Positions 50,213 to 57,528 of a stretch of DNA of 64,000 nucleotides are shown here, in pieces. A program made the position numbers and the translations under genes. Source of the DNA: Nymphaea colorata (Eukaryota; Streptophyta; Magnoliopsida; Nymphaeales; Nymphaeaceae); contig NC_045147.1 in the NCBI RefSeq assembly GCF_008831285.2, positions 436,001-500,000 of the forward strand. The letters run 5' to 3'. Numbering within the stretch: the stretch's first letter is position 1; each line of letters begins with the position of its first letter. Under the pieces are notes generated by a model, which saw nothing but the letters and a program-made list of their open reading frames with translations, was not told the DNA's origin and did no database searches.

Positions 50213-52330
50213 TGTTTGCATTCCAAAATTTGGTTTGGTTTCTTTGAGTGGTTCAGAAAAATAAATTTTATAAAGGAAAAATGACTCACCTATTGGTATG
50301 AAGATTGGCCATTCCCGATGCATTTACTGAGGGTAACTAATCCAAATGTTATGTTCACTCTCGATATATTTTGTATTTACTTGAACATCGTCTTCATCAT
50401 AAATGCAGTGTAATACTTTGCAAGGAAATTCTTTTGAAGATAGGTATCACATAAAATTTTTATTGAAAGATGAGAAAAATTTGAAGAAATTTTGAATGAC
50501 TAAACAATTTTGATTTGAGAAATATTTTAGAATTGAGATTGGAAGCTAAGGTTGATATTTTGAAGATTTCTTTAGCAATCAATTTAGTGTTCTCTTAGAA
50601 TCTTAAGTAGGTCCAAGATATTGCTCTAATTCGATTACTATTTAGTTAGAGTTTTATCTCATCTTGCTTAAGTTTTTTAGAGAAGTGTTTGTGATCATTC
50701 ATGAATTCCATATGTGCATGCACTGATTTTGTATGCTTGAAAATAATTTGTTCATTTATTCCATAACATTCATCTAAAAGTATTTCTACCATCACATACA
50801 TCTTGATTTTTATATCTTTGGTATATGTCATGTATTAGAAAATCATACTACCATGATATTCATTTCAAAAAAAGTTTTTGAAAGTATATTGAGATTGTAG
50901 ACCATCAAGCATGGCTCTAATGTAAGATGCATCACTTGAGTTTTGGCCTTTGTTCGCATCTGCAAAAATCTTCTGTTTTGGTTTTTAGAGTGCTTCAAAA
51001 AAAATTATTTTTGAAATGACAGGGAAAGAGACTTGCCCGTCGGTACGAGGACTGACCGTTTCTGGTGCCTTTATCGGGAATAACCAATCAAATAGATATG
51101 TTTATTCTTGTCGCATTTAATTTTTCCTTAAACATCTTTTTATTCTAAATGCAATGTGGTGTTTGAGAAAATATTGAAAATTTGATGTTTCAAAATTTTG
51201 AGAAAGTTTTGAAGAATTATTTGAGAGTATAAAACACTTTGCTTTGAGAAATTTGAATTGAGAAATCTTTACAAATATCATTTGGAAACCTTTGAATATC
51301 ACTTTTTGAAACCACTTCAGTTTTCTCTTTAAGTAGGTTTGAGATTTTTTTTTAATTCTTACAACCTACCTAGAGCTCTATTTCTTCTTGCTTAAGTTCT
51401 TCTAGTCATGTGCTTGTGGTCATTTGTAATGTTAAGTGAATGTTGACGTATGAATGCATTGACCTAAAAACAAATCATTTATTCTTACCATAACATTAAT
51501 CTAAAAACATTCTTACCACCACATACATCTAAGTTTCTCATTTTTATTATAAAATTGTTATAAGTATTTTTATGAAAAAAAAAGTTTTTGAAAATGGAAT
51601 GGACTTGTAGACCATCAAGCATTATTTCAATATTGGGTGATTACTTGAGTTCTAGTCTTGGTGAAGTCAACAAATGAGAAATTAAAATATTAGATCTTAA
51701 GAGAAAAATATTTGAAAAAAATGGAAAAAAGGAAAAACTTTAATACGAGAGAAAGAGAAAGAGATTTTGAAAATTACAAAATAGAAGATTTAAAAAAAGA
51801 GAGATATACATATACATATACGTACTTATATATACATATATGTGTGTGTGTGTATGTATGTATGTTTACGAAAGCTCGTGAAAATGAAGTATTAAAACGA
51901 ATGGAGAGGGAGAAGAAGATTTTAGAGAGAGACAGAGAGAGATTTTAGAGAGAGAAAGTGCAACACATATATATTCATTTACATATATGAAAATTTGTAA
52001 AAGAGTATGCTAAATCATAAAAAGAGAGATAATTATGTGCATATATATATATATATAACATGTATATACACATATATCTTTATGAGAGTTGAAATCAAGA
52101 GATAACTTGAAAATATCCGACTTCGATTTTTGTATGTAGGCTTGTAGGGCTGCACAACGAGTCGAGCTACTCGAACTCGACTCGTTTAAGCTCGACTCGA
52201 AAGTTAAACGAGCTACTTCATTAGTTAAACGAGTCGAGCTTGAGTTTATGAGCCAACTAGTTTAACTAATCGAGTCGAGCTCGAGTTCACTCTACGTGAC
52301 TCGTTAAAGCTCGACTCGGCTCGATTAACA

Positions 52331-52889
52331 TATCGGTTTTAAAAAACCGGTTTTAAAAAAACCGGTTCAACTGTCTCGGCGGGAAAAACGTTTAGGGTTT
52401 CTTCTTTTCCTTCCCTTTCTTTTTTTCATTCCCTTTCTCTTCGACGCCGACTCTCCCTCTCTCGCCTCTCAGTCTCCGTCTCTCCTACTTCTCGTTCTCT
52501 TCTCCCGCGAATCTCCGCCTGTGCTCTGCGCTTCCTTTGGTCACGATATTTTGGTTTGCTGCTGACAGGCGGAGTCGTCGTTTCTTCCTCCCGGCGATGA
52601 TACCAGAATGATTCATATCCTTGATAAACTGAGAATATTTTAAATGCCTTCTCCTTTTTAGTGTTTATTTGCTCGATGGTAGTTTGTGTCGGAAAACGTA
52701 ATCGTGGGAATACCTGTTTCCTTCGGCGATCTTTTATTCAAAACTCCAATAACCCGTGTTTTTCGTGTATTTTTTGTGAGAATCTAATGTTGTTTCTGCG
52801 TCTCAAGACATGCCTTTATTGATATTTTATCCCCTTTTTTCTTCACTGTTTATTGGTTTTGTGATTGAGATGCGCTTTACCTTGACGAG
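52331..52889 (+). promoter_or_regulatory. Captured promoter/5' leader-like region with telo-box
   Basis: Between the subterminal repeats and the SERF start codon lies a CT-rich stretch (ttcttcttttccttcccttt at 52400) preceded by tttagggttt (52391-52400). This is the plant telo-box word, common just upstream of genes for translation and growth functions. It looks like the host gene's own 5' region brought along with the coding fragment. No TATA box is obvious, and function is inferred from composition only. Confidence 0.4.
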
Positions 52890-55050: not shown

Positions 55051-57528
55051 CAGTTAATCTTCTTCTTATCATGTGTTTTAGAGAAGGATGCAATATTTGT
55101 GTGCTGCATGTTTTCTGCGTACACAAGCTCCTTATTGTTCTAATATTTGTCAATTTCCAGAACTCTTCATCTCAATGGGGTCTTTGTGGCCATAAACTAA
55201 TCCAAGCTTAAAGCTCATTAATATTCTGCCTCAGTTTTTCACTTATTTTTTGCGATTTTTTTTAATGAATGCTTATTCATGCATCAACATTTAATAGCAA
55301 AAGAGATGAAATAATCATTTGAATAGTTATAACTTTCTATATAAAAGGTAGTTCTAACTTAAGTCCCGACAATTTAACTCGTAAATTGATTTTGTTATGA
55401 CCTTATGTTGTAATATGGGACATTTGATTTCTTTGGTAACGAGTTAATCGAGCTCGATAAGCATGAGTACCAAACGAGTTTATCGAGCCCTAATCGAGCT
55501 CGAGCTCAACAAGTGAGGATGAGTAGTTAAACAAGCTTAATCGAGTCGAGCTCGAGCTTGACAAGTGACTATCGAGTCGAGTTCGAGCCAGGATAGTCGA
55601 GTTATATTCGAGTTCGAGCCGAGTCGAGCTCGTGTCATACTTAGTTGAGTCGAGTTCGAGCTGATCGAGCTCGAGCTCAACTTGGCTCGTGTTCAGCCCT
55701 ATAGGCTTGAGAGGAACTTGGGCTCATGCAAGAGCCTAGGCTAAGTCTCCAATGTCTCATTAAAGATGGTTCTTGCCTTAAAAAGTCGAAAAATATGATT
55801 CTAAATATTTTCATACATAAACATAAAACCATAATTATTTCGTTTGTTATAAGAGAATATATTTCTTTCACCATTGGGTATGGAAGAAAATTAATCAACG
55901 AAATAAAGCACTCATTGGGGTTCCTAATCGAATGATTAAAAGAGAAAATAAACGTGAAATTACATGAAGATGCATTTTAACATGTACATATTCGTGAAAG
56001 GCTTTCTTAGGTTAGACAAATCTCAACCTCAAAAATCAACATAAGAATGAAGAAATCTCAACTCAAACACTCATTTTTTGCCGTGCATTTGCTCATTAAT
56101 TAAAGAAAATTAGTACATCATGCATGAGCATCATCTCAAACATAAATGATGAGTAAAACAATATAACAAGCATATTTTTAAAAATAAATGTAGAAATAGA
56201 ATTTATTTCGCCTTGCTCATACTCCCGGTGCACTCAAGAGAAGCTTTCGACTTCGGATAAGAAATTTTTAGAGCTTTCTTGCATGGTCATGGGGAGGTGG
56301 CAAGAGGAAATGAAAATAAATGAAAACAAGATGATGGCTACATACCTCGAATATAGCTGATATTAGAAATGAGCCTCCTCCTTTGAATGATCATAGGGTC
56401 GCCTCAGTTGAAGTTCCAAGATGATGAAGGTATCTCCCCAAGAGATCTCCTCGTGCTCCCTTAAAAAGTTTGAACTTGGAGAAGCTTGCTTCCAATGTTG
56501 GAGAAAATGAAAAAGAAAAGAAAAGAGAAATGGAAAGAAAGAGCTAAAGGAAAACTCTAGATTTTTAAGTGAGAAAGAACTAGAGGTTCCCCAAAGGTTA
56601 GCTCATGCCCAAGAGAGAAAATTGTGAGGTTATTTATAGAGAGTTTTGAAGTCAAAACTCAAAATTTCAATTTCTTTGAATTTAACAATATTTTCATGTG
56701 AATTTCAAGTATTTTTGAATGATTTCAATTTTTTTTTAAATAGGTTTTGACCAAGTGAGATTGGTCATTAGCCTGCAAGTACTCCTTTGGGGTGTGGGCA
56801 GGGCTAATGCCTACCCAACAGAGGCGGTTTTTAGCTGAAAATGGGGCCTACGTAGCATCAGGCCCGTGTTCGGCATGTTTGCGTATGTGCACAGTGCTGT
56901 CGTGCGTCGGGCGCTGTGCTTGGCACATCGGCATGTGGCAGCGCGCGATGCACGATTGTGCGTGATAGCGCATGATGTGCGCGACTGCATGTCTGGGTTT
57001 AAAATAAAAAACAAAATAAATAAGATAAATAAAAAGTGGTCTGTTCATAAAACAAAAAAGCATAAGACCATGTTTTAAATGTGTATAAAAATGGTTTTGT
57101 TACAAATGGATTGGTTGATTCTGAACTCGTTTTAAATCTGGATTGGGTTCAATTGATCACCGATGCATTGTAGTGAGTGATTTAAACTCAAAAACACATT
57201 TTGACATGAGAACGAGATATAAAACGAAAGGAAGGTATGTGCATGTGCGCATGGCACTCGCAACATCTAATTTTGTCATTTTTGTCCCAGCTTTGGATTT
57301 TGAGTTTGAAATTCTCAATTTGAATCTAGGCTTTGGTTTTGGATCTAATTTGGATTCGAGAGATGGATTTTGAATTTCAATCTTTTGTTTGGACTCCGAC
57401 ATGGGTCTAGAGATTTGTTTTGGATCGAATGGTCAAAAATTTATTCTGGGTGTAGGGTTGGGTAGAGGATCCAAAAACTAAATCGGAACATAGTCCTTTT
57501 TAAAAAAAATTGGGGTGATAACAGCCTT

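Follow-up and report, generated by a model that had tools for sequence, protein, structure and literature searches.

A Pack-hAT transposon of Nymphaea colorata carrying host DNA from at least four sources, probably assembled in steps

A transposon carrying fragments of several host genes was analysed in a 64,000-nt stretch of the Nymphaea colorata genome (C10:436001–500000 of the host assembly; hereafter the window). The element, at positions 52145–55701 of the window, is a Pack-hAT, a kind known from grapevine, maize and rice, here with an unusually legible history. Between its ends it joins at least four sources from four other chromosomes: a SERF gene (C3), an auxin response factor (ARF) gene (C11), a glutamate dehydrogenase (GDH) gene (C2) and a sequence from C6. 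A sibling on C4 shares its SERF and ARF ancestry and is without GDH. The reading that we prefer, with a probability of roughly 0.7, is that of a non-autonomous hAT transposon whose interior was assembled in steps and which was mobilised by the transposase of its relatives.

Element structure and ends

The element begins with TAGGGCTGCACAACGAG at 52145 and, on the opposite strand, TAGGGCTGAACACGAG ends at 55701. Its terminal inverted repeats are short (TAGGGCTG/CAGCCCTA) and imperfect beyond this. Both flanks carry a perfect 8-bp duplication, taggcttg; the empty site before insertion would hold one TAGGCTTG. The subterminal fields were followed with TCGAGTCGAGCTCGAG, which, allowing up to 3 mismatches, matched the window 22 times against 0.09 expected; ten of these matches lie within the focal element and the remaining 12 within two further elements of the window. 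The inverted ends, the perfect duplication and the subterminal fields had all been described in a sequence-only reading of the window and stand as described. The parts of the element are as follows.

52137–52144, unstranded: target-site duplication taggcttg, left copy, 8 bp
52145–52531, + strand: family 5' module with terminal repeat, TCGAG/CTCGA field, telo-box and pyrimidine-rich leader (40/40 scored places match; 669 candidates)
52532–53388, + strand: captured SERF DNA with 5' part, exon, intron and part of the next exon, stop TAA at 52982–52984 (88% to the C3 gene, 95% to the C4 sibling; PF04419)
53382–53484, + strand: further SERF-locus DNA, after an internal deletion of ~500 bp with ~5 shared bases (92% to C3)
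53492–53619, + strand: remnant of the ARF gene on C11 (91% over 133 columns)
53620–53652, + strand: filler of 33 bp between ARF and GDH, containing a 14-bp repeat that reaches into the joint
53653–55050, + strand: captured GDH DNA in three blocks, donor on C2 (95, 96 and 91%; gaps of 254 and 600 bp relative to the donor)
55047–55383, + strand: fourth captured source (78% with gaps to C6; 87% over 114 bp to C2)
55415–55701, + strand: family 3' module with TCGAG/CTCGA field and terminal repeat (40/40 scored places match; 728 candidates)
55702–55709, unstranded: target-site duplication taggcttg, right copy, 8 bp

Captured sources

Donors and relatives were searched for in the host assembly (408 Mb, 783 contigs). 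The SERF piece matched PF04419 with an E value of 3e-5 on a hand-spliced reading, and was also detected at the focal locus without hand splicing in a whole-genome family search (E 6.1e-5, with one TAA). All 21 candidates of that search were scored, and four places were obtained: the C3 gene, the C4 sibling, the focal element and contig C139. The last was rejected as a donor, having no blastn match to the C3 region. The C3 gene and both element copies share two apparent extra bases behind the apparent start, and the C3 gene may be disabled or may start elsewhere. Contig C139 starts with CCCCAA-type repeats and holds a SERF-like frame and a putative eIF4E-like frame; it looks like a gene-sized ciliate chromosome, i.e. 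contamination.

The ARF piece was identified through its DNA match to the C11 gene, a locus that gave ARF_AD at E 5.5e-26 and a weak B3 match at E 0.005. The captured GDH DNA matched PF00208 (E 2.4e-27), with glutamate dehydrogenase 1 (6yeh) as the best solved structure. Its donor on C2 is apparently intact: the frames as read are open through nine exons, and that of exon 6 matched PF00208 at 1.7e-22. The SERF and GDH identities of the sequence-only reading were thereby borne out, and its capture of two genes has to be widened to at least four sources by the ARF and C6 pieces.

In the captured GDH DNA, exon 5 is present in part, exon 6 with its second half, exon 7 as a whole and exon 8 for the most part. 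Four exons with their introns and splice phases had been claimed; exons 5–8 are indeed represented, but the 600-bp gap has removed the first half of exon 6 together with its acceptor, so that exon structure and splice phase survive only partly. The captured introns align to the donor introns, which supports capture at the DNA level, as had been proposed. Intron 7 of the GDH donor (~5909–5933 on the reverse strand of the donor stretch L011) includes a short copy of exon 7 of the same gene. At this place the captured copy has a different sequence, and the element may therefore keep an older state of the gene.

The focal copy holds no intact SERF or GDH frame. Besides the TAA in SERF, a TGA interrupts GDH exon 5 at 53725–53727, where the donor has CGA, and with these stops and the truncated exons no open frame runs through the captured exons. 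Any RNA from this copy could at most be chimeric and non-coding, or truncated.

Transposon family and transposase

The 3' 17-mer GCTCGTGTTCAGCCCTA occurred 1,548 times in the genome (820 + 728, up to 2 mismatches), compared with 16 occurrences (9 + 7) of a reversed control. Both ends were established for 16 elements. Three of these lie in the window (the focal one included), one is the C4 sibling, eight others come from a set of 20 stretches and four from a further set. The 20 stretches were picked for likeness to the focal element and are not a census: two hold donors (L010 and L011), nine a both-ended element (the C4 sibling included) and nine one end only within the stretch. At 12 of the 16 elements the 8-bp duplications are perfect and all different from one another; two more elements have one mismatch. 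The search for the same ends that had been suggested for this element thus led to many loci with different duplications, and other patchworks occur in the family, so that the element is not the singular object it had been taken for.

A search of the genome for the hAT dimerisation region was scored for 150 of 1,113 candidates. By eye, and not exhaustively, 13 transposase matches were paired with a family end at a distance of 1.9–5.6 kb and on the matching side. Three of the 13 (on C8, C11 and C3) sit between a 5' and a 3' family end; two further matches lie more than 9 kb from a family 5' end. The stretch L024 has a 5' module from 3975 onwards; transposase frames follow it on the same strand at 6865–7683 and 7664–8959, in shifted frames. 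The second matched PF14372 and PF05699, and Hermes at 6.9e-14; the first was assigned no family in the Pfam scan. The focal copy itself carries no transposase. Because relatives with the same ends carry hAT transposase, the family belongs to the hAT superfamily, and the earlier description as hAT-like is strengthened to hAT.

The 5' module was matched in one piece past position 340 at 28 of the 40 scored places (669 candidates). The telo-box motif TTTAGGGTT was present at the same place in seven of 14 element sequences tested and in the transposase-bearing stretch L026; L024 does not have it there. Since the 5' module fronts the transposase in L024 and L026, the telo-box leader is the transposon's own 5' end. 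The idea that it is a promoter placed before the captured genes was accordingly dropped: a captured gene promoter is ruled out for the focal copy, the module being common to the family. In three other elements (E13, E14 and E17) the leader stretch matching focal positions 294–373 is duplicated.

Sibling element and order of captures

The C4 sibling measures 3,033 bp. Its SERF DNA includes the 3' part and runs directly into two ARF gene pieces, and no match to the GDH stretch was found in it. Over 823 ungapped SERF columns (42 gap columns left out), the focal and C4 copies share 38 substitutions, and several indels, relative to the C3 gene; 19 differences are private to the focal copy and 16 to C4, and two columns differ in all three. 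The ARF remnant of the focal element is the very stretch that is missing from the C4 sibling, which carries neighbouring pieces of the same gene, and their common ancestor therefore carried both SERF and ARF.

Between the captured GDH DNA and its donor, 49 of 1,249 ungapped columns show a difference (3.9%); this count omits five columns with gaps as well as the end of the third block, which is rearranged between the two. Set against ~2% for each private SERF branch, this value fits an entry of GDH at or after the split of the focal and C4 lineages. The end modules of the two elements are 71 and 80% alike, and each end has its nearest relatives, at 87%, in other elements; ends, too, have therefore been exchanged.

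Other loaded members and orientation of the pieces

The interiors of four more sequence groups each match several places. In the interior of E12, five stretches have different best places, and these include one that is ABCG-like and one that bears a PPR. That of E19 matches at least two places (one RRM piece, one RPL18a piece) and that of L034 at least five, with a 99% copy on C12. For the L033 group, at least four places were matched, and additional copies lie at 97–98%. Some of the matched places are elements themselves, for example C9:14690246 beside a family 3' end. Loaded elements recur as copies at 97–99%. The focal cargo was found in one copy among the candidates scored, while other loaded members are copied at different sites with different duplications. 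A malic enzyme patchwork lies both at C9:11037631–11042001 (L034) and at C12:378394–382732, and its 99% identity on different chromosomes suggests recent transposition. In the L033 group, one copy (L015 and C7:14363760–14396781) is apparently split over ~30 kb, with another piece of the group lying between its parts at C7:14378180.

Ten pieces in five elements were recognised: SERF, ARF and GDH (focal), ABCG and PPR (E12), RRM and RPL18a (E19), malic enzyme and CAAX protease (L034) and Tubby (L036). PPR, RRM and RPL18a lie above the Pfam cut-offs, as does malic enzyme for one domain; CAAX protease and Tubby fall below theirs at 8e-4, and ABCG has a PDB match of 8.7e-12 with a Pfam value of only 0.045. 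The pieces were first recognised by eye from the frames of both strands. All ten run in the transposase sense, for which a two-sided probability of ~0.002 is obtained if the pieces are independent. A Pfam scan of 33 antisense frames (including five of the 12 frames of the focal element) gave none at E ≤ 0.01 and one at 0.043. No gene was recognised in E13/E14/E17, E16/E20/L033 or L035, which are uninformative on orientation.

Tentatively, the family as a whole may be a serial collector of genes, in which repeated break repair would copy unlinked genes and pieces would be kept almost only in sense behind the promoter-like 5' module. If this is true, the genome would be supplied by the family, over and over, with new chimeric transcripts that combine several genes in sense orientation.

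Proposed mechanism and alternatives

The joints of the focal element were read at base level. The 5' module and SERF overlap by a few bases, the internal deletion in SERF has ~5 shared bases, and ~7 bp of filler separates SERF from ARF; the ARF/GDH joint has the 33-bp filler with its 14-bp repeat. The two GDH gaps show 2 shared bases and 5 bp of filler, respectively, and the GDH/C6 joint ~3 shared bases.

The course of events that we propose starts from an ancestor that would have taken up SERF and ARF DNA between its ends. After the lineages split, the focal lineage would have shed the greater part of ARF and taken up GDH and the C6 piece. At each step, repair synthesis at a break inside the element may have changed over to an unlinked template, with rejoining through a few shared bases or a short filler. 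The finished patchwork would then have moved by ordinary transposition, with the hAT transposase of relatives acting in trans, and pieces in the transposase sense would have been favoured, or tolerated, behind the 5' module.

Fusion of insertions is a rather unlikely alternative, but one with several observations in its favour. Two nearby insertions would act through their outer ends as one transposon carrying the host DNA between them, and such rounds would repeat. PMC8903248 puts this model forward for Pack-TYPE elements of every superfamily, hAT among them, and members of the present family do share halves: the focal and C4 elements have a common SERF part with different 3' parts, and different end modules, and the 3' third of L035 is common to E13 and E14 at 92–97%. 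Against it, a search of 13 interiors with the ends of seven elements found no terminal-module remnant at E 1e-3, though inner ends could have been lost; moreover, the sources lie on four chromosomes, and internal gaps and filler interrupt the pieces, which are short. An improbable further view is that the captured exons are retained for the function of a chimeric transcript, or of a small RNA, from the 5' module. The sense orientation of all ten recognised pieces and the position of the module before the transposase in relatives would suit it; the stops and truncations in the focal copy do not, and the mode of acquisition can also yield a sense bias.

Two other explanations are close to excluded. 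A leader precedes the SERF and GDH parts, which share a strand, as in a conventional chimeric gene of neighbouring loci with a chance pair of ends and an accidental 8-bp repeat. The donor search that had been proposed as a check was run, and placed SERF on C3 and GDH on C2, which rules them out as genomic neighbours; the same ends recur at many loci with different perfect duplications, and both genes contain stops. Pieces of spliced origin, or carriage by a Helitron or a MULE, are no more credible. Pack-MULEs have a 9–11-bp duplication and MULE ends, and Helitrons are not known to make a target-site duplication. The focal element has short ends and an 8-bp duplication, of the length found perfect at 12 of the 16 both-ended elements, and its ends are linked to hAT transposase; the captured DNA retains introns, and these line up with the donor ones. 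Retrocopy, Helitron and MULE readings were therefore rejected on the introns and duplications, even though Helitrons and MULEs are given as the best-known carriers for gene capture in PMC3260210.

Several points tell against the stepwise assembly and trans mobilisation preferred here. Shared runs of 2–5 bases at a few joints could be due to chance. Excision, repair and transposition are all deduced from sequence. The C3 SERF gene may be broken, and so perhaps a sister of the true donor, and the C6 piece is not a recognised gene. No duplication was found at two of the 16 both-ended elements (the C4 sibling and E13). The one transposase of a relative that was read (L024) is frame-shifted, so that none is shown intact. 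Finally, L021 (C7:22072617–22074413) and E12 have a segment in common that in L021 is turned round, beside a direct segment, which speaks against a strict sense rule.

Relation to known systems

As Pack-TYPE elements are defined, the focal element is a non-autonomous terminal-repeat element with host DNA (SERF, ARF and GDH) from other loci. The statement in the sequence-only reading that gene capture is much less documented for hAT elements is dated, cases from maize, rice, grapevine and animals having been published. Pack-hAT elements have been reported in maize and rice (Gisby and Catoni 2022, PMC8903248) and resemble the focal element in their hAT ends, 8-bp duplication and host gene fragments, with hAT acquisition events also reported. 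The worked examples of two-fragment or fused elements given there are Pack-PIF and Pack-Mariner, whereas the present hAT element joins four sources whose order is fixed by a sibling. In grapevine, the hAT family Hatvine-6 (Benjak et al. 2008, PMC2528002) likewise has common ends and variable interiors that match introns and exons of genes; it retains transposase sequence, of which none was recognised in the loaded elements read here.

Capture by maize Ds, termed rare, comprises two Ds2 and nine Ds-l4 elements (PMC3260210). These too are non-autonomous hAT elements with gene fragments and introns, and include a compound case, Ds-l4-483, which keeps an inner element copy; none was seen in the focal element. 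Among animal Pack-TIRs, 208 of 370 are hAT (Tan et al. 2021, PMC8277862). Their joints have shared bases, as here, and gap filling with template switching has been proposed for them; only four are multicopy, whereas the loaded elements of the present family recur as several copies. A 2026 review (PMC13317346) treats the capture of fragments from unlinked genes as unresolved and allows that an undiscovered mechanism may bring them in. Among the open-access papers listed in the literature search, none was seen to describe a hAT family that captures DNA serially from several sources.

The focal element is a clear and well-preserved case of a known route by which gene parts are shuffled in plant genomes. 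A sibling with the first two captures, together with candidate donors and joints resolved to the base, allows the successive captures to be put in order, and template-switching repair can be compared with fusion of neighbouring insertions on real joints. This bears on the unsettled question of how cut-and-paste transposons acquire genes.

Further observations in the window

The two further elements of the same kind are as follows.

19418–20237, unstranded: second element, 820 bp, duplication matching at 7/8 bases (ends and TCGAG fields)
31319–31781, unstranded: third element, 463 bp, duplication matching at 7/8 bases (ends and TCGAG fields)

A 141-codon frame in the second element had no Pfam match. 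A search of phage records gave no match. A reverse transcriptase/RNase H frame of an LTR retrotransposon lies at 60669–62081 of the window.

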